Shown here: positions 9,316 through 62,581 of the stretch, one piece after another
How the letters are laid out: every line of letters starts with the position of its first letter
Numbering within the stretch: the first letter of the stretch is position 1
Assembly: GCA_017624715.1 (NCBI GenBank)
Contig: JAGAMN010000064.1
Coordinates: 1-64,000 of the forward strand
Reading direction: 5' to 3'
Source: Oscillospiraceae bacterium
GTDB lineage: Bacteria; Bacillota; Clostridia; Oscillospirales; Oscillospiraceae
DNA: 64,000 nucleotides
Program-made: the position numbers and the translations under genes
The notes under the pieces: model-generated
What the model was told of the DNA's origin: nothing
Seen by the model: the letters and a program-made list of their open reading frames with translations, nothing else
The model's database searches: none

Positions 9316-9327
9316 GGAGGAAGCAGT

Positions 9328-33850: not shown

Positions 33851-33918
33851 ATTTGTTTCCCTTCTTGACATTCTGTGCTTGTCATTAAGGAAAGTATATG
33901 TTAAAATACCGTTGTAGA

Positions 33919-33937
33919 TGACATTTACTAAATGTCA
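33919..33937. promoter_or_regulatory. Perfect palindromic operator between xre and the alpha-CTD-like gene
   Basis: TGACATTTACTAAATGTCA has two 9-base arms around a single C. It lies between divergent genes and fits a homodimeric XRE repressor site. Confidence 0.72.
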
Positions 33938-33974
33938 CTCACAAAACAAAAGCCATCGAAAAGAGGGAATCAAG

Positions 33975-34295
33975 ATGGAACAGTCGCAGCATGATCCGTA
34001 TTACAAAGGGTATATCGCCGACTATCGGGACGGCATCCGAGATGGCGTCTGCGGTAAATCTGCAAAAGCTACTGAAATGGATATCACAAAACTACCAATT
34101 CAAGCAATGGCCCTTTCCACGCGGGCCCATCATTGCCTCTCCCAGGCAGGCTGTACGTATATTGCAGACGTTGCGTCGCTCAGCGAGCTTACCATCGCAA
34201 CCATGCGGAATATGGGTGCAAAAACCGCCGCGGAAGTCGCCCATTGGCTAGATATGCACGGCATTTATTACACCGCCTGGAGCGCATACCTGTAA
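33975..34295 (+). CDS. Small protein with an RNA polymerase alpha C-terminal-like domain
   Basis: A 106-residue protein. Residues 40-95 (IQAMALSTRAHHCLSQAGCTYIADVASLSE...MRNMGAKTAAEVAHWL) closely follow the helix-hairpin-helix pattern of the RpoA C-terminal domain (LS.R..N.L...GI..i.dL), without the alpha N-terminal domain. The alpha-CTD binds UP elements and activators; a stand-alone copy could recruit or titrate regulators. The ATG at 33975 is preceded by GAGGG. It is divergent from an xre gene with a shared palindrome. Confidence 0.72.
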   Translation: MEQSQHDPYYKGYIADYRDGIRDGVCGKSAKATEMDITKLPIQAMALSTRAHHCLSQAGCTYIADVASLSELTIATMRNMGAKTAAEVAHWLDMHGIYYTAWSAYL

Positions 34296-34304
34296 GCGCC
34301 TTTC

Positions 34305-34398
34305 TGGTACGCCGGAAGGGACTCGAACTGGTGGTTCCGCTCCGTCAAGCCGTCGCGACTGACTGTCCACCGGACAGTCAGATTTTATAGTTCGAGTC
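34305..34398. repeat. tRNA-end-like structured element at the edge of the accessory region
   Basis: On the minus strand 34330-34305 reads like a tRNA 3' end: a GTTCGAGTCCC T-loop followed by a CCGGCGTACCA acceptor end, but without a matching 5' half. The 9-base inverted repeat GACTCGAAC (34320-34328) / GTTCGAGTC (34390-34398) encloses a second hairpin, CTGACTGTCC / GGACAGTCAG. It may be a mobile structured repeat or an attachment-site relic. The composition shift begins here. Confidence 0.55.
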
Positions 34399-34556: not shown

Positions 34557-36863
34557 TTAAAAAACAAGTATTCCCATCAGCCAATCATGAATGCTCTTAA
34601 CGTAGCTATATTCATCCACTGGGACGCTATAGCTCTCTTTAGATAACTTATTCATGATCGAGTTAACTCTCAAAATCCAGTCAGTCTTAGGATCCTTTCC
34701 TCCAACCAAATGAGTTTCCTCAGGCCGTACAAAGGTATCCTCAAAGAACAGCGACCAGTTTTTTCCGTTAAGAATAATCTGTTTACATTCAGAAAGCGTA
34801 ACGTAGTTCCATATCGGAATATCAATTTCTTCGCCGGTACTTGTTACATGGACATACATCGCCTCATCAGCCTCACCCTTTGCCCGGGTATAGATATTCT
34901 TGGGTAATCCCTTGATCAGCCAACTATCTCCATAATAATCGCAAAGCCGTTCTGAAATAAGCAGCTTAACTTTGGATTCAATCTCACGCAGCATGGACTT
35001 GGTTTCTTCGTTGTATACCTTAGTCTCATTCTGCCAGAACTCTTCCAATCCTTCCGGTTTGAAATCCGGACGCATATCAGCAATCGCCTTTTGGTATGCA
35101 CGCCAGAAGCGGGTATCCGCACCACCACCAAAATAGCCACGAAGATCCTTGCGCTGCTCCGTATTGAGATTATTGATATAATCGGTTAAGGGTTTGAGAT
35201 AATAGCGGATCAGTCCAAACATATCATCTAGCTCCTGCGTTTTGGGCTGGATCATACCCTTTTCCACCAGCATATTGACCACATCGTCAATGACACGGAT
35301 AACAGCCTGGATACCACGATTCATGGTGAGCATTCCGCTATCCCTGTCGCCCCTGTCCCATTCGTCCAAACAAGTTTCTCTGATATACAGCAAGCATTTC
35401 TCCAGGAATGGGTAAAACAGATCACATGTTTCCTGGTTATCCTTGCAATCAAATGTACCTTCCTTTTGCAGCACATTTTTCTTTCCGTAACTATCAAAAA
35501 ATCTACATTTCTTCAATGCGGCCTGGATAGCTTCAACAGTGATGCAACGGATGGGAGTTAACTCGTTTTCGCCAATAACAACCCGGGAATTAAGGGGAGA
35601 TGTCGGTTCCTCACCCAGCATCTGTGCGATTTTAGAGCGAAGCGCCTGGCGCTGCTCACCAAAATCCGGAGATTCCCAAAGCATATCAGCATTCAGCGTT
35701 ACACGCAGAGATTTGGGAACAGCTTTCTGGTTTTCGTTAATATCCATAAACAGCTTAATCTGTTCAGATCGCTCCAAATCTACAAATGCAACTACCGGGA
35801 TTGTATTTGTTTCCGCGTAGAGAGAATCGGAATATCCATAAAGACGGTGCTGTCCATCAATTATATATGCTGACCGATACCGCTTGGGGATATGTAAAAT
35901 ACCTATTTTGGAAATGGTGCTATCAACCTTGGAGGAGGACTGATCAAAAGCAAGACCCTTTCCGTTTGTATCGATGCTGATAATTATGGAGTTGGGGAAG
36001 TAACCGCCGTCATTGATGAAAGAACGCACTTCCTGGAGACGCTTTTTCTTTATCAGTCGCTGGTATGTAGGCATCATATTTTTGTTGGCCTCAGAACGAT
36101 GCAGTACATATCCAATTTTCAACAATTTTTCCGGTTCGATTGAGAAAGAGTAATAGGTATATCCACCCATTTTTCCCTGGATTGCCGGTACACGGTCATC
36201 CATATTTTTGATTTCCTGATTTGCAAAAAGGCTACCCAGAAGCTGATACCGGGAGCAGGAACCCAAATGCTTAGCTAGGTCGGTGTAATATTCAACTATT
36301 GTATCGCTGAAATACGCCATACCCGCTTTATCCAGCAAAGCAAGGTCTCTCCGATTCATGATATAGTTATGAGAAGCCCAAATAAACTTTGTCTTTCTTC
36401 CCGGGAACTGCCGAAGGACTTCTTTCCTGATGCCGGGTATTTTTTTGCTAAAGTCTGTGATTTCTGCCGTAAAGTTGCCTTCAATCATTACATCAGCCGC
36501 ATGGCATACGACAAGCAGTACTGTTTCTTCATCTACAGCCATGACACAGATTCGTTCTTTCAGCTCATCCTCATTAAAATCATAGGAAATAGCCATGCCG
36601 TTATCTGCATTCATGCCTGAGAATCCCATGCTGGCAAACAGCAGCCAGATCCGATCCTCAAACTGTTCTGCAATAGGTTTTTCTTTGGCGACACCGACAT
36701 ATTTGGGACTTTTATAATCCTTACATTTCTCCCATCCGGCATCAATATGTTCCGGAAGTTCCGAGGATAGGATTTTTTTCGTGATAAACTGCTTCTTGTG
36801 GGCACTTTTCGCAGTTGCCAGCTGCTTGTCATAAACCAATTGGTTCCAATCCGTTCTAGCCAT
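34557..36863 (-). CDS. DGQHR-domain (DndB-like) protein with N-terminal nuclease-like region
   Basis: A 768-residue protein, last gene of the six-gene operon. The DGQHR motif is at residues 336-340 and a second family-like segment, FMDINENQKAV, at 372-382, as in DndB/DpdB-type proteins linked to DNA modification. Residues 60-130 (FEDRIWLLFASMGF...VDEETVLLVVCHAA) resemble a restriction-endonuclease fold, but the expected Asp/Glu-x-Lys positions are replaced, so it may be catalytically dead. The C-terminal 350 residues are unassigned. The ATG overlaps the methylase stop by one base; AAGGAG lies upstream. Confidence 0.82.
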   Translation of the reverse strand: MARTDWNQLVYDKQLATAKSAHKKQFITKKILSSELPEHIDAGWEKCKDYKSPKYVGVAKEKPIAEQFEDRIWLLFASMGFSGMNADNGMAISYDFNEDELKERICVMAVDEETVLLVVCHAADVMIEGNFTAEITDFSKKIPGIRKEVLRQFPGRKTKFIWASHNYIMNRRDLALLDKAGMAYFSDTIVEYYTDLAKHLGSCSRYQLLGSLFANQEIKNMDDRVPAIQGKMGGYTYYSFSIEPEKLLKIGYVLHRSEANKNMMPTYQRLIKKKRLQEVRSFINDGGYFPNSIIISIDTNGKGLAFDQSSSKVDSTISKIGILHIPKRYRSAYIIDGQHRLYGYSDSLYAETNTIPVVAFVDLERSEQIKLFMDINENQKAVPKSLRVTLNADMLWESPDFGEQRQALRSKIAQMLGEEPTSPLNSRVVIGENELTPIRCITVEAIQAALKKCRFFDSYGKKNVLQKEGTFDCKDNQETCDLFYPFLEKCLLYIRETCLDEWDRGDRDSGMLTMNRGIQAVIRVIDDVVNMLVEKGMIQPKTQELDDMFGLIRYYLKPLTDYINNLNTEQRKDLRGYFGGGADTRFWRAYQKAIADMRPDFKPEGLEEFWQNETKVYNEETKSMLREIESKVKLLISERLCDYYGDSWLIKGLPKNIYTRAKGEADEAMYVHVTSTGEEIDIPIWNYVTLSECKQIILNGKNWSLFFEDTFVRPEETHLVGGKDPKTDWILRVNSIMNKLSKESYSVPVDEYSYVKSIHDWLMGILVF

Positions 36864-37681
36864 TATGTGGAACTCCTTTCCGGAATATTTGTAAAAATAT
36901 ATTCTTTCACTTTTCCGCGATACGACTTTTTACCGCCGATCAAACTGTTACGTTCAAGTGTGACCATTCTGCCTTTGTCTTTAAAAATTTCCAAAATTGT
37001 TTCATGGGCCGCATTTGTCATAATGTAATAGGCACCCACTTTGTTGATGTGATCAATCAATCCAGCAAGGCGGCGCTGGTCTTCAAGGGAAAACCATGTA
37101 GAATTATATCCCACAAACCCAGTGTCTTCTTTTGATACCGTATATGGTGGGTCTAAAAAGATCAGATCGCCTTTCTGTATTTTGGGTGCAATGGTAGCAA
37201 AATCTTGGCATAATATTTCGAATCCATCAAGCTTGGCTCCAACATCCAAAAGGCGCTGATAGTTCACAGTGGCATTTTTATGTCCATAAGGGACATTATA
37301 CTTGCCCTTCTTGTTCACACGATAAAGGCCGTTAAACGAGTTGGCATTTAAATACAAAAAACGTGCAGCCCTTTGATATTTATCTTCGGGTTCACTTTCC
37401 CGAATTATGTAATAGCTATCTTCGTCCGATTTGTATTCCTTCAAGTAATTGATAATTCTATTCGGGTCGTCTCGTACTGCACAGAATGTATTAACCAATT
37501 CCTCGTTAATATCCGAAAGACATCCTCCTTTAGGAAGGTTCAGAGAGAAGAAAATTGATGCACCGCCCATAAAAGGTTCATAATAATTATTATATTCAAG
37601 TTTTTCGGTAAGCTGGGCAACATACGGAACAAGCCATGATTTGCCACCTGCCCAACGAATAAATGATGTTATAGGTGCCAT
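36863..37681 (-). CDS. Dam/DpnIIA-type DNA adenine N6-methyltransferase
   Basis: A 272-residue class D12 adenine methylase. Motif I FIRWAGGKSWLVPYV (residues 7-21), YYEPFMGGASIFF near 33 and the catalytic DPPY at 177-180 are intact. It transfers a methyl group from AdoMet to adenine in DNA, probably marking self DNA for the neighbouring helicase/nuclease genes. It is a Dam/DpnM-like enzyme, not the larger DrmMI type known from class 1 DISARM. The ATG overlaps the upstream stop by one base (TAATG). The target site cannot be predicted. Confidence 0.93.
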   Translation of the reverse strand: MAPITSFIRWAGGKSWLVPYVAQLTEKLEYNNYYEPFMGGASIFFSLNLPKGGCLSDINEELVNTFCAVRDDPNRIINYLKEYKSDEDSYYIIRESEPEDKYQRAARFLYLNANSFNGLYRVNKKGKYNVPYGHKNATVNYQRLLDVGAKLDGFEILCQDFATIAPKIQKGDLIFLDPPYTVSKEDTGFVGYNSTWFSLEDQRRLAGLIDHINKVGAYYIMTNAAHETILEIFKDKGRMVTLERNSLIGGKKSYRGKVKEYIFTNIPERSST

Positions 37682-39270
37682 TATTTTTTCCTCACCAATT
37701 CTATCAAATAGTACTTTGCTCGTGTATAAGCAATATAGTTGATGTTTTCAGAAGTACTTTGATCATGGATATAGATAACCAGGTTGGCCTCAAGTCCCTT
37801 GTACTCATCAACAGAATACACACTAACTTCATTTTCCGTCTGTGGCGGCCCCGATACAAACATCCATTTAGCAATTCCCTGGGGGAACAATGATATGAAT
37901 TCATCCTTGGATTCCGTAAGGATAACTAAGGAATCATTCTTCAGGTATTCATCTTCCAAATACCGTTTGAGTAGAGTCTCAAGGAACAGCACCAACTGTC
38001 CCTGTTCCGTAATGATTTCTGTAACCGGAGAAGGTCCTTCTACAGGATTTGCGATCATATCTGTGCCCAGTTTTGTTTTTTCCGCCACCCAATTATAGAT
38101 ATTGGCTGTATTTCTAATGTTTTCATGCAAGAGATACGGTGGCTCGGCAATAGCAAAGCCAGCGCCAAAGCTGTCTTCACGCAAAACCTGAACATCATCA
38201 TAGAACACACCCAACCTTGAGTTGTTCTCATCGGATAGGAGCTTACGGATAATTTCTGCCCATTCCACTGTAAAGTCCTGCGCTTCGTCTATAAAAATAG
38301 CGTCATATTGGGGAAGCGCCGCCACCAGACTATCAGAGATTCCCCTATACAGCGGGGCTTGGTATTTATCCGCATTTTCTGATATCAGTGCGAACAGAGA
38401 TCGCATATCATATACGTCAACACTATTTCCAACGTGTTGCTTGACCATCTCTGCAAGCGGCTTGGATGCACAAGCAAAAAGCACCCTTTGCCCAGATCGA
38501 TCAGCTTCAGCCAGGGCCATTTTCATGGCAATCCAAGTCTTTCCAGTTCCAGCACCACCGCGAATATAGAATTGCCGTACATTAGACAAAAGATAGATAT
38601 AGCTATCCTGGACACGATTAATTACACTCAACTGCCGATCTTTATATCGGATAAGGGCACCTGCCGCAGCCGAAATAGCTATCCTATCCCGTATCAATTC
38701 CAAAAATGCCCGGTGCTGGCTAATGGGGTAGATGCGGCGTCCATACGCCTTTCCGGCCCATAGGCGAAACATTTTTTTAATCTTGTCATGTAAATTGTTG
38801 AGATCATTGCTGTCGATCGTACATGTTCTGTCCCGATGACTTAATTGAAGGTCTTCCCCTACAGGATAAAACGGAAAAATAACACCCGCTCCGTGAATGC
38901 CAGCATACCTCATGTTATATTTGCTGGAAAACACCTGCGCAAAGTAGTACATGTTTTTCTCAGCCTGCTCATATGGAGAGATCTTCAACTTGCGCTCACC
39001 GTGGATCGCATCCGAAAGATACCAAATATTATCCTCAATTCTGATTCCGCTTCCACCCTTAACTTCCAAGCACAGAAAGCCGTAGTCGGGACTGGCAATA
39101 ACGAAATCCGCTTCGGATTTTACAAGTCGCCCTGCATAATAGCTTGTCCAGCTTACTGAATAGAAGACGTCAAATGAATCCGGCAGTTGATTCTTCAACT
39201 CCTGATAGACTATCCGCTCAGAATCCGTTGGTAAATATTCATTTATATTTTTCGGATACATATTAGCCAT
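37681..39270 (-). CDS. NERD-nuclease/superfamily 1 helicase fusion
   Basis: A 529-residue protein. Residues 15-120 form a NERD domain, a nuclease-related fold, with the putative catalytic set in SEADFV (D55) and LEVKGG (E69, K71). Residues 210-529 are a UvrD/DUF2075-type helicase: Walker A GGAGTGKT at 238-245, Walker B FIDEAQDF at 326-333 and a C-terminal AYTRAKYYLI segment. I chose the ATG at 39270, two bases after the drmB-like stop and with GGGAG upstream. It could supply the nuclease activity that DrmC provides in classic DISARM (inference). Confidence 0.87.
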   Translation of the reverse strand: MANMYPKNINEYLPTDSERIVYQELKNQLPDSFDVFYSVSWTSYYAGRLVKSEADFVIASPDYGFLCLEVKGGSGIRIEDNIWYLSDAIHGERKLKISPYEQAEKNMYYFAQVFSSKYNMRYAGIHGAGVIFPFYPVGEDLQLSHRDRTCTIDSNDLNNLHDKIKKMFRLWAGKAYGRRIYPISQHRAFLELIRDRIAISAAAGALIRYKDRQLSVINRVQDSYIYLLSNVRQFYIRGGAGTGKTWIAMKMALAEADRSGQRVLFACASKPLAEMVKQHVGNSVDVYDMRSLFALISENADKYQAPLYRGISDSLVAALPQYDAIFIDEAQDFTVEWAEIIRKLLSDENNSRLGVFYDDVQVLREDSFGAGFAIAEPPYLLHENIRNTANIYNWVAEKTKLGTDMIANPVEGPSPVTEIITEQGQLVLFLETLLKRYLEDEYLKNDSLVILTESKDEFISLFPQGIAKWMFVSGPPQTENEVSVYSVDEYKGLEANLVIYIHDQSTSENINYIAYTRAKYYLIELVRKK

Positions 39271-39272
39271 GG

Positions 39273-41183
39273 TCACATCTCCCAAAAACCAATAGACGGA
39301 GCCCCCGCACCATCAATGGAGTACAGGTATTTCCGACCTAATTCTGCATTAAAATGATTACATGAGATTTCCGGAATGATCAAGCATGCACTACATGCAG
39401 AATGATCTCTTTCCGTACAAATCGGATCAAATACACAGAATTTTGATTCATCATATACTTTTTTCAAAAAGTAAGCATAATTGGATTCTGCCATTCCGGA
39501 CAGGGCTCCCAGAGGAATGCCCTGACTGGTTTGCGCGTAAATAAAAATACTGGCTGTTTCCACAATGATGCTTTCGGTGAGAGAATTACTGGAAAGTCCA
39601 CTGAGTTCACCGGCGGCTTTCATCAATGCATGAGACATCGAATGCAACAGTGCAAAAACATATTTTGTTATGATTTCACTGTCATCAATTTCACCGAACA
39701 TAGAAATAACATCACTGTGAACATATTCAGCAAACCATTTTTTCACAGAAATATCATCATCCAAATCAGGCAACTGCTCTTCGCTGGTAATGCGGTTGGC
39801 ATACAGCCATTCAATAATCCTTCTTTGGCTTACTTCAAAGAGAATGCCTTCTGTATCCAGTTTGGCTCCATAAACGAGGTTTTCTGTGCCATCCCTGGTT
39901 CTATCATAGGCATTCAATTTTAGCCTGCAATTCTTATTTGCGGAGTTCTTCGGATCGGCTACCTTTCGGGAGTAGCCATATGTGCAGTTGATTATTTGAA
40001 TATCGCACGCTACCTGCATGTTCTTTATGCCGAGTCTCTTGTGCATATCCAAAATTTCCTGTGGGGAATCGATAAACTCCATCTCCAACTGCCGCTGAAT
40101 AGAATCATCAAGAGATACAATCCGTTTTGCGTATTTCAATGTGTAGTATTGCATCAGCTTGAACGAAAAATGATTCAGCCATTCCACATATCCTGCCGGG
40201 TTCCCCGCCTTTTTTCTGGAGAAAAGATCGTCGCAAATTGCAACATACCGTTCAACGCTACCGTTGTTCGGGCTATTCTTAAGCATATTGCTGACTGCGC
40301 TTTCGAACATTTCCTGCGGCAGCATGCCGGCGTCGATTAGGCTCTGTACCTGTTGTTCAATAGCCTTTCTCTGTGCGTCACTCTTGAATGCATCGCTGAA
40401 AGCCAACTCAACATTGTCCAGAATATGCTCATAGTCTGGGGTTGCGATTTTCCCAAACCATCTGGACACGATGACTTTTTGAGCATCAAGACCTTTTTTG
40501 TAAAACTGGCCACTTCTTTTGTCTACAAGATTAATTACCCGCAGGGTGAATGGCTTGTAGTTCCTACCAGAATTTGCGTTATCTGGAACCAATCTGGAAT
40601 TACAATTGGGGCACATTTGGACGAATTCTGCAGGTTTATCCACACGGCCGCTTCTGTAAAACATTTTATACTGTGTTTCGTTAGGACGGTATTTAAAATC
40701 CTTTACTCCCTGCACATAAGGAGTCCGGATTGGCTGCGCATAACCGCATTCACAGGTATAGATCATCTGCAACTGCTTTACAGCCATTTTTCCGCATTCA
40801 GGATTTCTGCATTTCCATGTGTACTTATCAACTGCATTCGGATTGCGGAGTTCATGAACCGTTCCACAGGAACTACAGTAAAAGACCAGCGGTGACATCT
40901 CACCGATAATATCCGGAATTCCCTCTCTGCAGGCGGGTTCAACAATTGAAAATGAATGTACCCCAGGAGTAACATCAAATGCGCTGATGTCACCGCCACG
41001 GTCACCGAATAACTTTATTTGCCGCTTGATTTCGTCCTCAATAAAATCTTCGTAAATACCGTCCATTTTCATGTAATTCCAGTTATTAATTCTCGCAGAA
41101 ACCGCTCTTTCGGAATCACCTTTTTCTGATATCCACATTTCCGGCAAGAATCTGTATACCGCTTGGGTTTTACTTCTTTTCAT
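39273..41183 (-). CDS. DrmB-like DUF1998 protein
   Basis: A 636-residue protein resembling DrmB of the DISARM anti-phage system. It has an N-terminal zinc-ribbon-rich part (CSSC at 103-106, C125/C130, C144/C146, CPNC at 191-194). The DUF1998 signature is near residue 512, HSMSHALMKAAGELSGLS, with a downstream CSACLIIPEISCNHFN Cys cluster. In DISARM, DrmA and DrmB form a DNA-loading complex. It starts 11 bases after the DrmA-like gene with GAGG upstream, so the two are co-transcribed. Confidence 0.83.
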   Translation of the reverse strand: MKRSKTQAVYRFLPEMWISEKGDSERAVSARINNWNYMKMDGIYEDFIEDEIKRQIKLFGDRGGDISAFDVTPGVHSFSIVEPACREGIPDIIGEMSPLVFYCSSCGTVHELRNPNAVDKYTWKCRNPECGKMAVKQLQMIYTCECGYAQPIRTPYVQGVKDFKYRPNETQYKMFYRSGRVDKPAEFVQMCPNCNSRLVPDNANSGRNYKPFTLRVINLVDKRSGQFYKKGLDAQKVIVSRWFGKIATPDYEHILDNVELAFSDAFKSDAQRKAIEQQVQSLIDAGMLPQEMFESAVSNMLKNSPNNGSVERYVAICDDLFSRKKAGNPAGYVEWLNHFSFKLMQYYTLKYAKRIVSLDDSIQRQLEMEFIDSPQEILDMHKRLGIKNMQVACDIQIINCTYGYSRKVADPKNSANKNCRLKLNAYDRTRDGTENLVYGAKLDTEGILFEVSQRRIIEWLYANRITSEEQLPDLDDDISVKKWFAEYVHSDVISMFGEIDDSEIITKYVFALLHSMSHALMKAAGELSGLSSNSLTESIIVETASIFIYAQTSQGIPLGALSGMAESNYAYFLKKVYDESKFCVFDPICTERDHSACSACLIIPEISCNHFNAELGRKYLYSIDGAGAPSIGFWEM

Positions 41184-41194
41184 ATCTTCTTACC

Positions 41195-44100
41195 TCAGAT
41201 TTTGATTTCGATCTGTTCTTCCGTATCACGCAGGCTTGTCATAGGTGTTTTTTTGCCATGAGAGAACTTGCCGATAGCCTCCGAAAGAGACATTTCCTTT
41301 GCGAAATTACCGTTTTGAATCCCCAAAAGAATATTAGTAGCCTCTTCAATAATGATTTCCTTATATGCCAAAGACATTTTCTCTTGATCATTGCAGCCAT
41401 AGGCAGCAATCAACTTGGACACGACATCATCAATGTCTATATCCCCGGATCTGAGCAATTTTTGCACCTTAATGGCCTGGTGAAGACTATCCGACTTAGT
41501 CGTCCCAGTGTAGTATTGTCTGATTAGGCCCGCCAGCAGTCCGGGCAATGTGCTGTAAATTGCATTTTTTGCCCAACGGTTAATGGGGACCGGTTCCACC
41601 AGATCGTCTCTGTTTTGATGGAAAATCACAAAATTTTTCAAATAAGAACGATCGCGCACTCGCATGAGACGAATAATGTCAATTACGATTCCGGTGTGCT
41701 TACGTCCGGTACGGGAATAAGCCTGGATGTATTCCGCATTGTTATTCGGCATACCGAAGAAATACATCAGATTGAAGGAATCCTCATCGACACCATGCGA
41801 AATTGTGCTGGTAGCCAGCAGAAGATTCGTACTGTTAAAGTTTCTTCTATTAGATTGGATATCAAACAAAGTCTTTCTGACAGTCTGAAAATCCACATCA
41901 CTGGTCATCTGCTCTATTGCAAACTTTGGAACACCCTTAGCTTCCAGATAGTTATTTGCCTGGTTTTGGAATGCATTCTCCAGTTCCATTGCATCCTGCT
42001 TTCGGTTGTTGTAGACCAGTTCAATCCAGTAGTCATACAGCATCTCCTTATATTGCTCGATACTGCCGGAAAAACCGTTTTCACAAACTGCTGCGTAGCT
42101 TTCCTCCAGGAATTGAATCATTCTGTATATTACCAATCTCATAATATACACGGATTCCCACATGCCATCTGTAATCGAACGTCCATACGGAGCATATCCG
42201 ATCAGAATTCGGGTGATATCATTACTATCTGTATATGAATAGAAGTCTTCACCCGCTGTGGCAGAAGGATACTCACAGGGGAACCGTCTGCCATCCATGT
42301 GGTACAAATTCCAGATATGGCTCTCATACATAGAAATTGTCGCAGTAGCGCCAACAAATCTGATTAGCTTCCTTTGCTGTGCCGGAACAAGCTCCTTTGC
42401 ATAATAACTCAGGAACGATTCATAATGTGCATCAAATGTTCCCAGGCTTTCTTTTACAAGGTGCATCTCATCCTGGATGAACAAGGTTGGAATTGGATCC
42501 TTCAACAGGCCGACATCTACCAATTTACCGCTACATGCTGCACAGGAACATTTGCTTCCCCCTGTGAATCCATGCACCAGGCATTTCTTTTTCACTTGAC
42601 CGAACAGCATTTTGAAGTCATTACTGGTTCCCAGCATGGCCATCTTATCGATTGTGCTGACAACAATTGACGGCAAATAGCGATAAATCTCATTGTCCAC
42701 AATCATCAGAGGCAGGACAGTGATAGGGCATTCCGGATTGTCGCACACATGCTCCAGCCGCCAGGTGCTTCGATTAAAACGCAGATTCACTTCTTTTTTG
42801 CCGCAGAACGGACAGGTATCAATAAATCTGTAGTAATCGTTCAGTGTTTCTGTTTCGCTTTCTAGAATCAAATCCTTTGTTTTGTTCTTTTCGCCTCTGT
42901 CGCTTAGCCGCTCAGAAGAATCTATTTTGTTAGGCGTATTTCCCTTGCCCACAAAAAATCCGACCTGGAACGGGTTGGTATGAGACAACTCACGGCTGGA
43001 TTCTCTTACCACATTTGCTTTCATAACGATCGTCAGCACACGATCCAGCTGTTGTACCGCAAGCAGTCTAAGAGGATATTTTAAGAACGCGCTAATGCCA
43101 TCATTTTTTCCCCGAAGCCTGTCAAAAAACATTGCAAACACGCAGGAGCCCAGAAACGCTTCCGTTTTACCACCGCCGGTCGGGAAGTACAGCAGATTTG
43201 CCACTTCAATATCCGCTTCAGCAATGGTCCGGTCATTGGGGTACTCGCTTCGAATTACTTCACATATGAGTGTAACAATAAAAACAATCTGGAACAGGCG
43301 CCAGCCGGTGATTTGTCTGTGTTCTCCGGAAAGTTTTGTCATAAAGGTTTTATTCATATAAATAAATGCCTTTTTGACATAGTCTTTATATTCAATCTGA
43401 TCGATGCCCTTCTTGAACCGGGCGATTTCATGTCGGTACTCTTCCAATGCTGAGTGGAATCGTTCCTTTGCAGTTGCACTTGTAAATCTCGTAGTATTAT
43501 ATTCCCGAAGGCATTTATCGTAATCCGCACGCATCTGTTGATAAATAAATGACAGATTACCTACTGGATCCTGAATTAACTTTTCAAAGGTTACATATTG
43601 AGATAGGCCATCTTTGGTCTTCAGCCGCAATTGGTCATACCGAGGTATATTGTCCGTTCGTATCGAATTGTCCTCGGAGTGATATGCTGCCGATGTATTT
43701 TCGGACACAGCATATACCAGGGATCGTTTTCTGTAGCTGTTTTTGAAATAATCCAGTTTGATATCGACAAATTCCACATGTTCATTACCAACAATATTCA
43801 TGCCAGCATTGAATATTTTCGGCAAATACCCCATGTTATATTTCCCGTTTACCGGAGTTTTGTTTACCATCTGCAACAAGAACCGATAGGTATCGCCTTC
43901 TTCGGTAACAGTGCAATAAATATCAATATTCCATCTTGGATTTACACTCTCATCCGAGCCTCCGGTCACTAAATAAAAGCGGTCTTCATCGAGCAAGTCG
44001 GCAAATGTTACGCGATCGCTCTTGACGATTTTTATTTCTTTGATGATCCGCTCAGAAAGGGTTCTCAATTTCCCGTTGATTTTCTGTTCCAGATGGAATT

Positions 44101-44590
44101 TGCTCTCCTGTATGGACTCCAGACAAATAGGGACACCTTCGCCAATCTCGTCTTCAATCCGGACTTTTTTATATGTAAGAGGAAGATAGAATTTTTCTTC
44201 AGGATAGCAATCAAACAACTGCTGAATGCTATCATATGGAACATTATCTTTTTCGGAATACTTCTGCAGCAGAAATGCAACAGTCTTCTTATAATCCGGC
44301 TCGACTGTATAAAACAGCAAACCTTTGGGGATTACACGGATAATTCCCGCCACGTTCTTTTTGACAATGAAAGACACGCTGATAGAAGGGACGCTTTCGA
44401 AGCGAGTGCTGTTGTTTTCAATGTATCCTCCGTCAAAGCGCTCCTCCATGCGATTCTCTGCCAGCATTCCAACCATAACGCGATCCGCCGGGGAGTCATC
44501 GACAAATGTTTCTTCGATATCATTACCGGAAATTCGGTCTATGTACCTTGAAACAATATAATCAGCCAGTATGTTGTAATTATTAGCCAT
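41195..44590 (-). CDS. DrmA-like superfamily 2 helicase
   Basis: An 1131-residue helicase. Walker A FPTGGGKTEAF at residues 469-479, the DEMH box at 707-710 and GATAT at 747-751 (motif III) are present. The C-terminal ATSTISHGVDED near 928 and YIQAYSRTGR near 955 complete the set and match the DISARM DrmA pattern. A Cys-rich insertion (CPFC at 593-596, C616, C621, C680-C686) lies between motifs. A 450-residue N-terminal region of unknown fold precedes the motor. An AAAGGAG site precedes the ATG. Its direct DrmB-like neighbour supports the call. Confidence 0.85.
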   Translation of the reverse strand: MANNYNILADYIVSRYIDRISGNDIEETFVDDSPADRVMVGMLAENRMEERFDGGYIENNSTRFESVPSISVSFIVKKNVAGIIRVIPKGLLFYTVEPDYKKTVAFLLQKYSEKDNVPYDSIQQLFDCYPEEKFYLPLTYKKVRIEDEIGEGVPICLESIQESKFHLEQKINGKLRTLSERIIKEIKIVKSDRVTFADLLDEDRFYLVTGGSDESVNPRWNIDIYCTVTEEGDTYRFLLQMVNKTPVNGKYNMGYLPKIFNAGMNIVGNEHVEFVDIKLDYFKNSYRKRSLVYAVSENTSAAYHSEDNSIRTDNIPRYDQLRLKTKDGLSQYVTFEKLIQDPVGNLSFIYQQMRADYDKCLREYNTTRFTSATAKERFHSALEEYRHEIARFKKGIDQIEYKDYVKKAFIYMNKTFMTKLSGEHRQITGWRLFQIVFIVTLICEVIRSEYPNDRTIAEADIEVANLLYFPTGGGKTEAFLGSCVFAMFFDRLRGKNDGISAFLKYPLRLLAVQQLDRVLTIVMKANVVRESSRELSHTNPFQVGFFVGKGNTPNKIDSSERLSDRGEKNKTKDLILESETETLNDYYRFIDTCPFCGKKEVNLRFNRSTWRLEHVCDNPECPITVLPLMIVDNEIYRYLPSIVVSTIDKMAMLGTSNDFKMLFGQVKKKCLVHGFTGGSKCSCAACSGKLVDVGLLKDPIPTLFIQDEMHLVKESLGTFDAHYESFLSYYAKELVPAQQRKLIRFVGATATISMYESHIWNLYHMDGRRFPCEYPSATAGEDFYSYTDSNDITRILIGYAPYGRSITDGMWESVYIMRLVIYRMIQFLEESYAAVCENGFSGSIEQYKEMLYDYWIELVYNNRKQDAMELENAFQNQANNYLEAKGVPKFAIEQMTSDVDFQTVRKTLFDIQSNRRNFNSTNLLLATSTISHGVDEDSFNLMYFFGMPNNNAEYIQAYSRTGRKHTGIVIDIIRLMRVRDRSYLKNFVIFHQNRDDLVEPVPINRWAKNAIYSTLPGLLAGLIRQYYTGTTKSDSLHQAIKVQKLLRSGDIDIDDVVSKLIAAYGCNDQEKMSLAYKEIIIEEATNILLGIQNGNFAKEMSLSEAIGKFSHGKKTPMTSLRDTEEQIEIKI

Positions 44591-44664
44591 ACCAATCTCC
44601 TTTTTACCTGCCTATAACTGTAGCGGCCCGCCTGATTTGAATCTGGGAAGATTCAGGACCCAGC

Positions 44665-47196
44665 TTATTTATTAGATTTCGTCCACCACCCAGATTTATA
44701 CGATGTTGCTTTTCCAGAACCGTATGCACCATTCGCCCTAAACAATCTTGCAGCTTCCAACACATAGGGCTCCAATTGCTTCTTCTCGCCAATTACCCAT
44801 AGGCACCCACCGTTTGGCCTACAGTCTACTACCTTAAAACCTTTACCCTGGAAATACGATGCCAAGGAAGTGGTGTTCCCTGCAGACTGTGATACCTTGC
44901 TGGACGGAGCAATTGTAGGGGTTTGGGGTTGTGCGCCATTGGGAATAATTCTGTCAACTCTGTAGGTCAAGGGGACACCTTCAAGTTTGAATGTTTCTCC
45001 AACCTTTTTGCCGATGATCCCTTTTTGCTTAGGGTATTTCTTTAGATCAACAGTTATGCTGGTGTCCTTTTTGGTGTCCAGAATCGTTGCTTTGATAGTC
45101 ACATGATCAATTACTTCCGGCAAGGACGGTCCATTATCCTTCGATACTGACTTTGCCGCTGCGTTTTGTCGAGTTACATTGCCAGAATTCTTTCCTGCAC
45201 TTCTCTGTGATACCTGAGGTGCGGGCAGTGATGCTCTATCGGCATCTCTCTTTATAATTTCTTCCATAGGAGTACCGGACTTAATATCACTAATTACATA
45301 CAGGACATCTCTTGCTCTGGAGCAAGCGGTATAGATCGCCCTCATTTGGCTTTGAACAGATGCTTGGCCAGCGGCATCCATCGCTTTGATGCCGCTCCAA
45401 CTTTTGATTGAATCACCAACGACCCCATCCGTGTTCACATAACCGTAAGGGAACAATCCAGTTAACACTACCGCTTTAAAATCCAGGCCAAGAGAAGATT
45501 CGATAGTGGAAATTACAACACCCGAAATGTCACCCTGTCTTTTCTTAACGAACATATTATCTTCGTTAATGATCATGGAATATGGGATACCCTCATCATC
45601 AAGACCTTGCTTTAACCAGTAGAGAAAACGATAGTTATGGTACGGTACCTGTCTGAACGGAAATAGCACTGCAATCTCAGAATAGCTAATACGATATTTT
45701 TGTGCGATTTCTTTCACTGCGGCAATTGTTCTCGCTTTAATCTCCATCCGGTTTACACCTGTTTGAACATTGAGTGCAATAGTGGGATTTGATCCTACTT
45801 TAAAAGAGTTATATTCATATTCGAGCGAGTTAATCAAATCCAGCATAGTAAGTCGGTTGTTCATATGCTGGAGCATGCTCGCAATGTACTCACCAATGTC
45901 TTTGCTGTTGCGGTAATTTTTCTCTATATAGCGCACACGTCCCTTAAAATCCAGCTGGATACCGTTCATCCGTTTCCATGGAGCATCGCCCTTTCGGCTC
46001 AATGCACGGACGGCCTGGTTCAAATCACCCGCCATTAAAAATACACGATCGTCATCATCTTCTAGCAGCCGGTAGCAAAGCTCAAGGTACAACGGATCAA
46101 AAATCTGAACCTCATCTATAAAAATTGCTTTGAAGCGAAGTTTAATTTTCCCCTGCTTGACCAAATCAATGCATTTTTGAATTTCTTCCTCGGTAGCTAT
46201 ATTGGATGCACAATGCGAATGCAGACATTCCTCATAAATTTTCTTCACCAACTTATGGAATGTCATAATAAAAAGATTATTATTTTCGCCAAAATTCGCA
46301 CAATTGCGTTTAAAATTATACGAGTCTGCCAAATTATTATTGTAGCAGGCCAGCAGGACATTCGATCCTTTGTACAAACTTGCGTATTTAAATGCCTTCG
46401 AAAGGAGGAGAACACTTTTACCTGCTCCGGGGTTCGCCAAAATAACTCTATGGCCTTTGCCCATATCATTGACAATGCCTACTTGGTATTCATCCAGGAA
46501 AAATGTCTTAAATTCCTGTTCCTGGCCCGTGATGAGCAAATCTTTTTCTGTTACAAGTGTCTTCTTTTCATCAATGCGGACATGAAGAGTTTCATTCATA
46601 ACCACGGTATATTCGGGCGCCAATCGCTCAAATACCGCACGGCATTCTATATCCGAGACTGATTTGAATGTATGGTCATATGCTTTCCGGATACAGTCAA
46701 AAATCCGCAAATCCTCGATTCTTTTTTCCTTACCGTCAGAGGTGATTGGGCGGAAAGCATCAAATGTTGCATATCCATACAATTGCTTGAGTTGATCAGC
46801 GGATATAGATACCTTTCCTATGCTTTCCTCCGGAAAAATAACGATGTGCTTATAGGGAAACTTTAGTGCTTTTTTATCACCATTTCGAACAATCAGCAGC
46901 TTTGAATCCAGTAAGCGCTCATATATTTTCTGTTCCACCATTTCGGCATATCCGATATATGCCGGGATCATCATTGCGTTAATTTTTCCGGGATAAATAG
47001 AGAATGTGATGAGGCCCTCATTGAGAGATATGTACATTCCCATTCTGGTGGTTTCATTGCTTAAGCCAACCGGATCAATTCCAACAGCTATGTGGCCATT
47101 CTGAAAATTCCGTGCAGCATAACGCAGCAAATTTTTTTCTGCTTTGGTAATATGATCTTTTCTTTCATAATCTTTTGGCCATAAGCGAATCGCCAT
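44665..47196 (-). CDS. UvrD-like helicase with novel N- and C-terminal extensions
   Basis: An 843-residue protein, first gene of the DISARM-like operon. Walker A ANPGAGKS is at 254-261 and Walker B FIDEVQ at 359-364; a C-terminal motif with YTACSRARDVLYV lies near residue 625. Residues 75-125 look NERD/nuclease-like (MVEQKIYERLLDSK...IVIFPEE). After a low-complexity linker (about 645-690) come two small domains, the last one (GFKVVDCRPNGGCLWVIGE...YKSGWWTK) possibly a DNA-binding module. Not part of classic DISARM. No clear promoter is visible in the 98-base gap upstream. Confidence 0.8.
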   Translation of the reverse strand: MAIRLWPKDYERKDHITKAEKNLLRYAARNFQNGHIAVGIDPVGLSNETTRMGMYISLNEGLITFSIYPGKINAMMIPAYIGYAEMVEQKIYERLLDSKLLIVRNGDKKALKFPYKHIVIFPEESIGKVSISADQLKQLYGYATFDAFRPITSDGKEKRIEDLRIFDCIRKAYDHTFKSVSDIECRAVFERLAPEYTVVMNETLHVRIDEKKTLVTEKDLLITGQEQEFKTFFLDEYQVGIVNDMGKGHRVILANPGAGKSVLLLSKAFKYASLYKGSNVLLACYNNNLADSYNFKRNCANFGENNNLFIMTFHKLVKKIYEECLHSHCASNIATEEEIQKCIDLVKQGKIKLRFKAIFIDEVQIFDPLYLELCYRLLEDDDDRVFLMAGDLNQAVRALSRKGDAPWKRMNGIQLDFKGRVRYIEKNYRNSKDIGEYIASMLQHMNNRLTMLDLINSLEYEYNSFKVGSNPTIALNVQTGVNRMEIKARTIAAVKEIAQKYRISYSEIAVLFPFRQVPYHNYRFLYWLKQGLDDEGIPYSMIINEDNMFVKKRQGDISGVVISTIESSLGLDFKAVVLTGLFPYGYVNTDGVVGDSIKSWSGIKAMDAAGQASVQSQMRAIYTACSRARDVLYVISDIKSGTPMEEIIKRDADRASLPAPQVSQRSAGKNSGNVTRQNAAAKSVSKDNGPSLPEVIDHVTIKATILDTKKDTSITVDLKKYPKQKGIIGKKVGETFKLEGVPLTYRVDRIIPNGAQPQTPTIAPSSKVSQSAGNTTSLASYFQGKGFKVVDCRPNGGCLWVIGEKKQLEPYVLEAARLFRANGAYGSGKATSYKSGWWTKSNK

Positions 47197-47294: not shown

Positions 47295-48194
47295 TTAGAG
47301 AATCCAGGTCCCTGCAGAAGCTGACCATTTCTCATCAAAAGATCCACCATCCACCGCTGCAGTGAACGGTTTTGTAAGGAACACCTTAATTGTCTGCAGC
47401 ACCGTGCTGTAATCATCGGTTTTAATATCCGTTTTCCGGCAGAATGCCCGCCACTTTTTCTGCATGGCATCGTCGCCGTCAAAAGCTACGATCTGTTCAA
47501 ACTGTGCCACCGTAAAAGTATGGCTGCGGTTGGCAAAGGTCTTTTTCAGAGCCTCTGTCAGCACTGCTCCGTCAAAGTCGAACTTATTGGCCAGATAATA
47601 AATATCGTAGTAATCCTTCATGCGGCTGGAAAACTCCATCAGATTCAGGATCGCATCCAGCTTTTCCGCAATGGTGGTCTCCAGGGAGTATGTATTGACC
47701 ACAGGAGCATCAAAGCCTTCCAGCTGAGTGGGAATTTTCCGTTTTTCCTGTTTAGGAACAATGACATCGCCGATACCGAAATCAATACCGAAGGGTGTCC
47801 GGGTGTTTTTGATTCTGGCTACCACCGTCGCTCCAACACCGGCATATTTCTTGGTGACGGCGATCGGTGCGACGCTCTTGATCTCAAAGGTCACAAAATC
47901 ATTTTCGCTGGGAACGGCAATGATCTCCTCCAGCACTGCTTTGACCTGCTCCGGAGTATTGGGGACTTTGCGAAGCAGGAAGTCCACATCAACGGTTACC
48001 CGGCTGTCAAAATCCGTAACTGCATACACGAACAGGCCACCCTTCAGAACAAAGTTCTCAGCATATCTGGATTTTTCCAGACGGCGCAGGAATTCTTCCT
48101 GACAAAAGAGCTGCAGGCACAACTGGTGACTTCTCCCGCTTGCCGCCGCCTTATTCTTCAGTCTTGCCAGCACGGATGCTGCCATATCAGCCAT
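47295..48194 (-). CDS. AbiEii-like nucleotidyltransferase toxin
   Basis: A 299-residue member of the AbiEii/AbiGii family. The GGLFVYAVTDFDSRVTVDVDFLL stretch near residue 50 carries the GG...DxD nucleotidyltransferase core, and the KLDAILNLMEFSSRMKDYYDIYYL segment is diagnostic. AbiEii toxins use GTP and are thought to block growth during phage infection by modifying RNA; the AbiEi partner keeps them off. The start overlaps the antitoxin gene by 8 bases, giving tight coupling. Located directly upstream of the DISARM-like operon on the same strand. Confidence 0.92.
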   Translation of the reverse strand: MADMAASVLARLKNKAAASGRSHQLCLQLFCQEEFLRRLEKSRYAENFVLKGGLFVYAVTDFDSRVTVDVDFLLRKVPNTPEQVKAVLEEIIAVPSENDFVTFEIKSVAPIAVTKKYAGVGATVVARIKNTRTPFGIDFGIGDVIVPKQEKRKIPTQLEGFDAPVVNTYSLETTIAEKLDAILNLMEFSSRMKDYYDIYYLANKFDFDGAVLTEALKKTFANRSHTFTVAQFEQIVAFDGDDAMQKKWRAFCRKTDIKTDDYSTVLQTIKVFLTKPFTAAVDGGSFDEKWSASAGTWIL

Positions 48195-48792
48195 TGAGAA
48201 GCACCTCCATCAGTTCGATAACTTTTTTATATACACGCAGCTTTTTAGCATATATGGAAAGGTTGTTCAAGTTCTTTCGGGGATCGTTTGCATAGGCATT
48301 CAGCGCCTTGGAAAACAGTTCCGTATCCAGCCGGGAACGATACTTGAAGCAATCGCAGATCGTACGCTCTCTGTCATATATGGGCAGTGTAACACCATGG
48401 AAGTCCCCAGAGGATATGCCCAGTTCGTAAAGATCCTGCTGAACAAAATAGGTTTGAAGAGGCAGCCCACCTACATCCAGCTTGGTTCTGGATACAGTGC
48501 GGGGTACAGCAACAGACCACTTTCGCGGAGCGAAATCGCTGTAGCCATAGTAGAACAGTGCCGATTCCACACATACAACACCCATAGGAAGCAGCGTTGC
48601 CAGTATCTGTTCCTCCGTTGCCTCATCCTTTTCTGCCATCTGATAATAGCCATGCCGGACACGATCCAGATAACCGGCATTACACATATTCACAACATCG
48701 ACTGCACGGATTCCAGCCGCCACAAAATCGGCAGACTTCGCAATGCCGCCTTTGCTTTCAATTACATTTTTTGCTACTGCACGAATATCCAC
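48187..48792 (-). CDS. AbiEi-like antitoxin and autorepressor
   Basis: A 201-residue protein with an N-terminal winged helix (AVAKNVIESKGGIAKSADFVAAGIR...GYLDRVRHGYYQM), then the AbiEi core. AbiEi is the antitoxin of the type IV AbiE system and represses its own promoter. I chose a GTG start at 48792 with GCAGGTG upstream; the in-frame ATG at 48837 has no ribosome site. Three copies of a 13-base motif around the promoter are its probable binding sites. Confidence 0.88.
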   Translation of the reverse strand: MDIRAVAKNVIESKGGIAKSADFVAAGIRAVDVVNMCNAGYLDRVRHGYYQMAEKDEATEEQILATLLPMGVVCVESALFYYGYSDFAPRKWSVAVPRTVSRTKLDVGGLPLQTYFVQQDLYELGISSGDFHGVTLPIYDRERTICDCFKYRSRLDTELFSKALNAYANDPRKNLNNLSIYAKKLRVYKKVIELMEVLLNG

Positions 48793-48813
48793 GCAATCAC
48801 CTGCCTTCAAATT

Positions 48814-48924
48814 AAAATTCGTACACATTTGCAACATCTATGTGTTCTATTTTATTATATCCACCATACGACAAAAATGCAACTAAAATTCGTACACGCA
48901 TATAAAATATTTGTGTACGAAATT
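48814..48924 (-). promoter_or_regulatory. AbiE promoter with three operator repeats
   Basis: Minus-strand TTGCAT (48877-48882) and TATAAT (48854-48859) have a 17-base spacer. The motif AAAATTCGTACAC occurs at 48814-48826 and 48885-48897 and, inverted as GTGTACGAAATT, at 48913-48924. It flanks the promoter on both sides. The inverted pair upstream of -35 fits known AbiEi autoregulation. Confidence 0.82.
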
Positions 48925-60288: not shown

Positions 60289-61758
60289 ATGAAGGCAAAC
60301 AAAAATAGAGGTGGGTTTATGATCTACTATAAATACATGACAGACGAGCATGGCAAAAGGCTGCCGTTTGTTAGAATTAAGAAAGTTGAACTTACAACCT
60401 TTAAGGGTGTTAAGCATGGCATTCTGGAATTTAACTGCGCAAAAGAAAACATTCCGTATAATACTAAATCCGATATCATGGGTCTTTACGGTCAGAATGG
60501 CTCCGGCAAATCGTCCCTTGTGGATGCATTGAATATCATCAAGGATCTGATGTATGGGTTTAAGCTGGATGACGATTGCGTTCGCTTTATTGATGTTGAG
60601 ACTGGATATTCTATCATTTCTATTGTTTTCGATTTTCAATATGTTGATGGTCGACAGGCGGAGGTAGAGTATAGCGCCAAACTAACTACTATGCATCGGC
60701 CCGAAGCAGACAGATCCCCAGATAGCATTGATGACCAATCTGAGTATTATGTTGGTGTGTCTGAGGAGAAAATAATCTCCCATATTTATACCGATGGTAG
60801 TATTAAGAGACGGCACACAATCTTTGATACCGCCGATAATGTGCTTTGTGGAGACACAATTGCCAAGGAATTGTTTGGTAAGAATTATGTCGCCGTCAAG
60901 GATGAACTGAGCTATCTCAAGAGAAAATCGTATGAGGATGGGCGTTCCTTCATTTTTAGTTCTGGCCTTGCGAAGATTATTGGAGAAAAAACCGAAGAGA
61001 CTGCTTACAAAGAAATCCTCATCGAACTGAATTACTACGCAAGCCGTTTCCTCCATGTTATCGAGTCTCGTTCTAGTGGCATTGTACAGCTTAGACTTGG
61101 CATCCCCCTTTTCTTGCCTACTGTCAATATGCCACTTGTGTTAATCGAAAATGATCCCATTCCTGCACGATTTGAAAAATCAATCAAAGATGCATTTAAC
61201 CAGATCAATATTGTTATTGGTACAATAATCCCAGACCTGCAGTTGGATGTAGAGTTTTCACCTATGACAGCCCCAAATGGAGAAGCTGGCATTTGCACAA
61301 CCATCTATTCTGTCCGTGGGGAAAAGCGTTTCCCGTTTGCATACGAATCTGATGGCATTATTAAAATTGTTTGCATCCTCGCGGACTATATCGTTGCATT
61401 CAATCAAGGGTCAACCACATTAGTTGTGGATGAATTTGATTCTGGTATTTTTGAATATCTTCTTGGTGAACTGCTACAAATCTTTGAGGAATCCGGCAAG
61501 GGCCAATTCATCTTTACTTCCCACAATCTGCGTCCTTTGGAGATTATTGATAAGAAATTTATCCGCTTTACCACCTACGACCCACATAACAGATACTATC
61601 GGCTGTCTAATGTCGGTGAGACAAACAATCTGAGAGATTTGTATCTCCGGAAAGTTCAGCTTGGAAATGAAGATGTGGAAATTTATCGTAGAACCAAAAG
61701 CTTCAAAATCGTAAAGGCATTACGTTCTGCAGGTGGGAGGTTTGCGAATGGGCAATAA
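60289..61758 (+). CDS. AAA-family (AAA15/OLD-like) ATPase
   Basis: A 489-residue ABC/SMC-type ATPase without a long coiled coil. Walker A GQNGSGKS is at 68-75, Walker B VVDEFD near 380 and a conserved SHN switch near 410. The first strand (VELTTFKGVKHGILEF) is typical of AAA15/AbiL/RloA-like proteins. These pair with effector proteins in phage defence. GGAGGTG lies upstream of the ATG at 60289; a second ATG at 60319 is also plausible. It overlaps the next gene by 11 bases. Confidence 0.85.
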   Translation: MKANKNRGGFMIYYKYMTDEHGKRLPFVRIKKVELTTFKGVKHGILEFNCAKENIPYNTKSDIMGLYGQNGSGKSSLVDALNIIKDLMYGFKLDDDCVRFIDVETGYSIISIVFDFQYVDGRQAEVEYSAKLTTMHRPEADRSPDSIDDQSEYYVGVSEEKIISHIYTDGSIKRRHTIFDTADNVLCGDTIAKELFGKNYVAVKDELSYLKRKSYEDGRSFIFSSGLAKIIGEKTEETAYKEILIELNYYASRFLHVIESRSSGIVQLRLGIPLFLPTVNMPLVLIENDPIPARFEKSIKDAFNQINIVIGTIIPDLQLDVEFSPMTAPNGEAGICTTIYSVRGEKRFPFAYESDGIIKIVCILADYIVAFNQGSTTLVVDEFDSGIFEYLLGELLQIFEESGKGQFIFTSHNLRPLEIIDKKFIRFTTYDPHNRYYRLSNVGETNNLRDLYLRKVQLGNEDVEIYRRTKSFKIVKALRSAGGRFANGQ

Positions 61759-62548: not shown

Positions 62549-62581
62549 AAATTGCCCCAGTAAATGTTAGGAGGTATGCCG

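Follow-up and report, generated by a model that had tools for sequence, protein, structure and literature searches.

The window analysed here is a stretch of 64,000 nucleotides (nt) from an Oscillospiraceae bacterium (GenBank assembly GCA_017624715.1, contig JAGAMN010000064.1, positions 1 to 64,000) and is part of contig C61 (69,106 bp) of a 2.27-Mb assembly, which has 69 contigs and is 85.9% complete. In the list of open reading frames (ORFs), positions 34557-47196 of the minus strand are occupied by six closely packed genes that all read the same way, and these form an operon resembling the defence island system associated with restriction-modification (DISARM). In operon order they encode Hel6, a superfamily 1 (SF1), UvrD-like helicase (843 amino acids (aa), 44665-47196), a DrmA-like superfamily 2 helicase (1131 aa, 41195-44590), a DrmB-like DUF1998/MZB protein (636 aa, 39273-41183), a NERD nuclease fused to an SF1 helicase (37681-39270, with the ORF extending to 39285), a Dam-type (D12) N6-adenine methyltransferase (36863-37681), and a long DGQHR protein (768 aa, 34557-36863). 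The successive gene junctions measure 74, 11, -13, -1, and -1 nt. The likelier start of the NERD gene is the ATG at 39270, which matches the start of its relatives and places the gene 2 nt after drmB. The G+C content of the operon is 42.6% versus 57.3% at positions 1-33000.

DrmA was assigned by its PADLOC match (E 1.6e-136), by its similarity to the DrmA structure 7s9v in the PDB (E 1e-44), and by the invariant motifs FPTGGGKTE, DEMH, and QAYSRTGR; CxxC zinc-binding pairs are located at 593 and 683. DrmB is encoded by a separate gene and matched the PADLOC model (E 7.9e-44), and its Pfam zinc domain MZB scored slightly under the cut-off (E 5.4e-4, 21.1 bits, cut-off 24.2). Both proteins are divergent, because they stay under the curated NCBIfam cut-offs (361.3 versus 950 bits for DrmA and 82.8 versus 240 bits for DrmB). 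Hel6 matched Pfam AAA_19/UvrD and the PADLOC model C3a187 'NERD+UvrD' (E 3.9e-20) and has a Walker A motif ANPGAGKS at 254 and a Walker B motif FIDEVQ at 359. The C-terminal ~190 aa of the window copy are short or missing in most of the 14 relatives aligned. The NERD helicase has a Pfam NERD domain above the cut-off (39.5 bits), a match to PADLOC RTasNERD-Hel (E 1.5e-45), and the Walker motifs GGAGTGKT (A) and FIDEAQD (B), and its NERD residues E18, E53, D55, E69, and K71 are conserved without exception in the 12 relatives aligned.

The Dam-type methylase scored 204.1 bits with the NCBIfam dam model (cut-off 114.85), was called a methylase by PADLOC as well, is the sole Dam match found in its own, incomplete assembly, and contains the DPPY and WAGGK motifs. 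Like DrmA, the NERD helicase, and Hel6, it has its enzyme motifs in place. Since it is closest among solved structures to M.DpnII (2dpm, E 3.6e-49) and keeps the NGLYRVN loop of that enzyme, our guess is that it targets GATC. The DGQHR protein matched its NCBIfam family with 170.1 bits (cut-off 58.85), PADLOC DpdB (E 1.7e-24), DndB (E 1.5e-10), and PDC-M34B, and Pfam DndB (E 1.4e-18); with the NCBIfam models of DpdB and DndB it reached 82.7 and 40.4 bits, far under the cut-offs of 300 and 328. It is composed of an N-terminal PD-(D/E)xK-like domain, a central DGQHR (ParB/Srx-type) domain, and a C-terminal PDC-M34B-like domain, and the D/E/K motif of the N-terminal domain has been lost (C106, V119, H121).

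In the two DISARM classes, DrmMI is paired with DrmD and DrmMII with DrmE. The operon shares with DISARM the DrmA helicase and a separate DrmB (DUF1998) beside it, and contains neither the phospholipase D (PLD) nuclease DrmC nor either pair of class genes; PADLOC found no DrmC, DrmD, DrmE, DrmMI, or DrmMII among 19 different window proteins, which represent part of the ORFs of the window. Because drmC and the class genes were tested for and not found, we call the system DISARM-like and not DISARM as defined. Among open-licence PMC papers, none was found that joins DISARM and DGQHR or that names the six-gene set, and the system is thus a DISARM-like class not found in print. The original prediction, which had described an AT-richer block of six co-directional, mostly touching or overlapping genes of these six protein types, agrees with the ORF coordinates, junctions, base composition, and PADLOC, Pfam, and NCBIfam matches. 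It had noted two additional SF1 helicases and an additional DndB-like gene, which correspond to Hel6, the NERD helicase, and the DGQHR protein. It would have been overturned by DrmA and DrmB profiles without significant hits, by a drmC-like gene next to the operon, or by a published name for the set; the PADLOC matches were strong, no such gene was found at the locus, and the open-licence PMC papers searched gave no such name.

A DrmA alignment searched against 84,980 species genomes gave at least 571 relatives, of which the 80 best were examined as a sample and not a census. The six genes are complete, in the same order, in three other genomes, Pseudoflavonifractor phocaeensis An858 (L024), a Bacillota metagenome-assembled genome (MAG; L025), and a Ruminococcus MAG (L027), with 72-75% identity to the window in DrmA and 74-80% in DGQHR. 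As the order is complete in three other genomes, the operon is not a chance cluster, and a one-off MAG artefact was rejected because three other assemblies contain the set. DrmA was matched in none of 24 other genomes of the host genus and, at E 1e-30 or better, in 8 of 397 other genomes of the phylum, and no long DGQHR was matched at E 1e-12 in these 397. Viral contigs gave nothing when scanned with the single DrmA sequence, whereas the DrmA alignment did give matches.

Together, the species-genome scan, the viral-contig scan, and the window yielded 18 loci, among the matches listed, with a Hel6-type helicase upstream of DrmA (L034, on a 3.1-kb contig, was not counted), of which four are cut within DrmA or DrmB. 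In L026 (Spirochaetaceae MAG), for example, the order Hel6-DrmA-DrmB is followed by the contig end inside DrmB. At all 14 loci whose DNA continues past DrmB, DrmB is followed by a NERD helicase, and the examined DNA of the 18 loci contains no DrmC or DrmE match. The DrmAs of these loci form one branch (17 rows, SH-aLRT 100) in a quick tree of 99 DrmAs, which gave warnings for long branches and letter make-up and excluded L017 and L147 as duplicates and L034 and L046 for their length. This branch was placed beside archaeal and bacterial DrmE/DrmC systems. It includes L051, which is labelled 'other' under a 300-bit rule, though its Hel6 scores 177 bits; without L051 in the branch, the Hel6 label needs two changes on the tree. 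A NERD helicase also follows DrmB in the more distant DrmA loci L021, L140, and L141, and plasmid pC5.7d encodes a UvrD helicase, DrmA, DrmB, and NERD in the same order, with a helicase 20% identical to Hel6. Judged by gene order, the conserved unit is the four-gene core of Hel6, DrmA, DrmB, and NERD helicase. The suggestion of an undescribed DISARM class stands as to its novelty in print and is refined as to its extent: the core is conserved, and the Dam and DGQHR genes are exchangeable.

Among the 14 loci that extend beyond DrmB, four (the window, L024, L025, and L027) have Dam and DGQHR with the core. At six others (L030, L031, L032, L033, L035, L137), a radical SAM protein directly follows the NERD helicase, and all of these also have one or two GHKL ATPases except L030, from Clostridium ultunense DSM 10521, whose examined DNA contains no GHKL gene. 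L037, whose DNA ends after NERD, has an extra 355-aa gene of the radical-SAM group. A protein of 353-549 aa lies between Hel6 and DrmA in this group only (L032 at 8947-10008, L031, L033, L035, L037, L137), and its L032 copy has a weak beta-solenoid (FapA) match. Further loci carry restriction-modification (R-M) or other genes. In L028, a DpnII-like R-M set (DpnII endonuclease-methylase and N6/N4 methylase) lies 3.7 kb downstream, and in L136 a Dam-type methylase lies upstream; in L049, which is cut within DrmA, Hel6 is preceded by a type III-like methylase and an endonuclease-helicase. In L029 (7978-10725) and L136 (16712 onward), a 915-aa protein stands right after the NERD helicase; it has no Pfam match and, for the L029 copy, no PADLOC match either. 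Read from these neighbourhoods, Dam and DGQHR are an exchangeable cassette around the core, for which radical SAM with GHKL ATPases or R-M genes are the alternatives.

A link between the cassettes comes from plasmid pNL1 (L012) and an Agrobacterium plasmid, where long DGQHR proteins 26-30% identical to that of the window stand beside radical SAM and GHKL genes. The radical SAM and GHKL proteins of these plasmids are 37-43% and 28-36% identical, respectively, to the core-adjacent ones of L030-L033 and L035; DrmA and DrmB were not found in the examined stretches of the two plasmids. The clusters at L012 15899-26301 (pNL1) and L013 12182-22570 comprise a long and a short DGQHR, radical SAM, two GHKL ATPases, and a PIN-like protein, and this alphaproteobacterial plasmid cluster is possibly a separate system.

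Dam and long DGQHR also occur together without the core. Scanning viral contigs with a DGQHR alignment recovered at least 24 relatives, nine of them full-length among the matches listed. A Dam-type methylase lies directly beside DGQHR in eight of the nine, a radical SAM protein in the ninth (L106), and no core genes were present in the examined DNA of these loci. L104 has a phage setting with portal-like and minor capsid genes; a search of a phage collection with its DGQHR returned short partial matches alone, in four records. One chromosome likewise encodes the pair, from the single genome with a long DGQHR match, at the thresholds set, among 398 genomes of another phylum. Short DGQHR proteins have other viral neighbours: in 9 of 11 examined loci (L114-L117, L120, L122-L125) the ORF before them is ~285-310 aa long, contains an SPPY motif, and in L117 is classed by Pfam as an N6/N4 methylase; they are mostly followed by a ~290-310-aa protein, which has no Pfam family in L117, L113, and L121.

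The D...E-x-K motif of the N-terminal domain is complete in nine of nine Dam-paired DGQHRs without the core (eight viral, one chromosomal), nearer to eight independent rows as L107 and L108 are near-copies. It is complete in none of the four DrmAB-linked copies (C-V-H, S-V-Q, D-T-H, S-S-H) and in none of the three radical-SAM-linked copies (D-E-R, D-E-T, N-E-R). Motif and linkage are associated (Fisher's p 8.7e-5, with related rows), and the motif changes three times on the tree. The four DrmAB-linked DGQHRs form one clade (100/100) that groups with the Dam-only L104 and L105 (100/99). A Pfam test of N-terminal fragments, which took in 10 of the 16 DGQHR proteins, gave weak matches to Hjc, NERD, Card1, or HSDR_N_2, which we take to be PD-(D/E)xK families, in five of seven motif-complete fragments, all under the cut-off, and no nuclease-family match for the fragments of the window and L012. 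PADLOC CARF/Csx1 nuclease models matched three of five motif-complete long DGQHRs, below their curated cut-offs. In motif-complete copies, the N-terminus is likely a PD-(D/E)xK-like nuclease.

From this gene content, the six-gene system most likely destroys foreign DNA without the host methyl mark. We consider it on balance probable that the operon belongs to the DISARM branch and acts against DNA in a methylation-linked manner, with Dam and DGQHR docked on a DISARM-like engine and the NERD helicase as the nuclease. As far as family knowledge goes, Dam would mark host DNA, probably at GATC, Hel6 would help to open or travel along DNA, and the NERD helicase would degrade it in place of the PLD nuclease DrmC. 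DrmAB would load on incoming unmarked DNA, much as Serratia DrmAB binds unmethylated 5'-overhang DNA according to passages of PMC9142583, which also describe DrmC as dispensable and often missing in DISARM. The DGQHR protein, a putative nucleoside triphosphate (NTP)-binding protein of ParB/Srx type, may tie the methylase or its sites to DrmAB, as gene linkage suggests. In the portions of PMC4619093 and PMC12839542 considered, DGQHR domains are said to resemble the ParB/Srx-type NTPase of GmrS, and DpdB is given as an ATPase of DNA modification. Dam and DGQHR would originally have been a free, R-M-like two-gene unit whose nuclease site was lost on the branch toward the docked copies.

Several observations weigh against this model. 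A PLD protein with a 31-bit match to the DrmC hidden Markov model (HMM) is encoded elsewhere in the same genome, and a PLD-helicase lies near the L024 operon, as does a homologue close to the L028 core; given these PLD proteins, a PLD nuclease may act in trans. DGQHR was unmatched in the rest of the L026 genome, a MAG whose contig is cut inside DrmB, and the Dam ORF of the viral pair in L105 is short (175 aa) and without the N-terminal motif. The motif loss in the DrmAB-linked copies counts as one event, as the four copies are one clade. As for the nuclease assignment, two of the seven motif-complete fragments lack any Pfam match and two of the five motif-complete proteins lack a PADLOC nuclease match, a profile search of PDB sequences with the DGQHR N-terminus found no nuclease, and hhalign detected no relation between this N-terminus and the NERD domain.

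A bolder version, which we put forward tentatively as distinctly less probable than the docking model, is that Dam and a long DGQHR with an active PD-(D/E)xK nuclease constitute an undescribed NTP-dependent, phage-carried two-gene type of R-M system. DISARM-like engines would capture the pair, silence the nuclease, and employ Dam and DGQHR as an identity cassette that can be exchanged; its place could be taken by radical SAM and GHKL genes, which perhaps make another DNA mark.

It is unlikely, in our view, that the four-gene core and the Dam-DGQHR pair are independent neighbours on mobile islands that do not work together. Their separate occurrence speaks for this: the core lacks Dam and DGQHR at 10 of the 14 loci past DrmB (L028-L033, L035, L037, L136, L137), though other Dam-type methylases are nearby in L028 and L136, and the pair lacks the core at nine loci. 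However, the six genes overlap or touch in the window, their order is kept in L024, L025, and L027, and the loss of the DGQHR motif in exactly the four complete sets suggests a change of role on docking.

We assign a similarly low probability to the view that the DGQHR protein is a DndB-like regulator, which represses or tunes operon expression or Dam activity, rather than a sensor. The Pfam DndB match given above fits a regulator, and DndB is a negative regulator in the parts of PMC12839542 consulted and regulates DNA phosphorothioation in those of PMC4507180. However, DGQHR is the last gene of the operon, its 768-aa product carries additional domains at both ends, and a nuclease-like motif, for which a repressor would have no use, is retained in its standalone relatives.

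Least probable, and in our estimate very unlikely, is an ordinary DISARM minus drmC and the class genes that recruits a PLD nuclease from elsewhere in the cell: such recruitment is proposed in the sections of PMC9142583 considered, and the genome encodes PLD proteins on contigs C52 and C37, but none of the 18 branch loci has DrmC or DrmE, an invariant NERD nuclease stands in the place of DrmC at all 14 that continue past DrmB, and Hel6 is not homologous to DrmE. For the same lack of homology, Hel6 as a form of DrmE was rejected as a candidate; none of 23 DrmE rows has a Walker motif.

The operon is located at the left end of a presumptive mobile island. At 34305-34328 (+), 24 nt of the window are identical to the 3' end of tRNA-Arg(CCG), the gene of which lies at 64824-64899 of contig C61 (L171 4825-4900). 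We propose this direct repeat as the left attachment repeat of an operon-carrying island, with ~30.5 kb between the repeats. The island encodes AbiE, a Cch/DUF927 helicase, a terminase small subunit, a major capsid protein, two large serine recombinases, and an AAA/AbiLi-like gene, and is similar to the satellite-like elements in which ARMADA and Druantia are found according to passages of PMC12458937. On the far side of tRNA-Arg, a tyrosine integrase is encoded at about 67.05-68.26 kb of the contig. The AbiEii/AbiEi toxin-antitoxin pair (47295-48837, minus strand; Pfam and PADLOC) is co-directional with the operon and 98 nt upstream of Hel6, and is an island neighbour outside the six-gene system. 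The AAA_21/AbiLi-like gene at the right island end, followed by two ORFs without Pfam match (60289-63700), may be a second defence system. A small protein encoded at 33918-34295, immediately outside the left repeat, has the C-terminal domain of RNA polymerase alpha. An Rfam search of the window gave no match.

If the docking model is true, DISARM would be not two fixed classes but a DrmAB engine fitted with different nucleases and self-marking cassettes. Which nuclease finishes the work when DrmC is absent would become testable, here with an operon-encoded NERD helicase, as would the question of how the mark is tied to DrmAB, through a DGQHR protein that can be compared with its free-living form, which seems to be nuclease-competent. 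The cassette of radical SAM and GHKL genes common to DGQHR and DrmAB loci suggests a DNA modification that may be unknown.

What is new is this class with its parts and not the existence of diversity, since the passages of Bell et al. 2025 (PMC12458937) considered state that the DISARM-like clade contains many uncharacterized classes. These share the wider YprA/DrmA clade with the window system, and no gene list for them was found in those passages. The core layout may overlap a McrBC-linked DISARM-like cassette, because the same-order set of pC5.7d is close to a DUF2357 protein. The partners described in the same parts of PMC12458937 for ARMADA (PglX/BrxHII), BRIGADE (deazaguanine genes), and TALON (TPR-CSD/TBP) are unlike those of the window system. 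Similarity to Dpd and Dnd lies in the DGQHR domain, which the DpdB and DndB models match far under the NCBIfam cut-offs, and, for Dpd, in a YprA-type helicase that is also a component there (PMC12458937, in part). Other Dpd or Dnd proteins, including the DpdA transglycosylase and DndC/D/E, were not matched among the 19 window proteins, and dpdA was not searched for in the rest of the genome. With DpnII R-M systems the operon shares a Dam most like M.DpnII, which in the window is followed by DGQHR; no DpnII endonuclease was matched among the window proteins searched with Pfam and PADLOC. The radical SAM, GHKL, DGQHR, and PIN cluster of pNL1 and the Agrobacterium plasmid has a homologous long DGQHR, but no DrmA or DrmB was found there.

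DISARM with DrmE and DrmC is a close counterpart. The system on the Halomicrobium urmianum plasmid (L014, annotated DrmE), which we take to be class 2, likewise has split, adjacent DrmA and DrmB genes and a methylase in the operon, and the DrmA of the window branches in the half of the tree that contains DrmE/DrmC systems. In contrast to these, the window operon lacks DrmE, DrmC, and a cytosine methylase, and has a Dam-type methylase and DGQHR added; Hel6 occupies the position of DrmE, and the NERD helicase that of DrmC.

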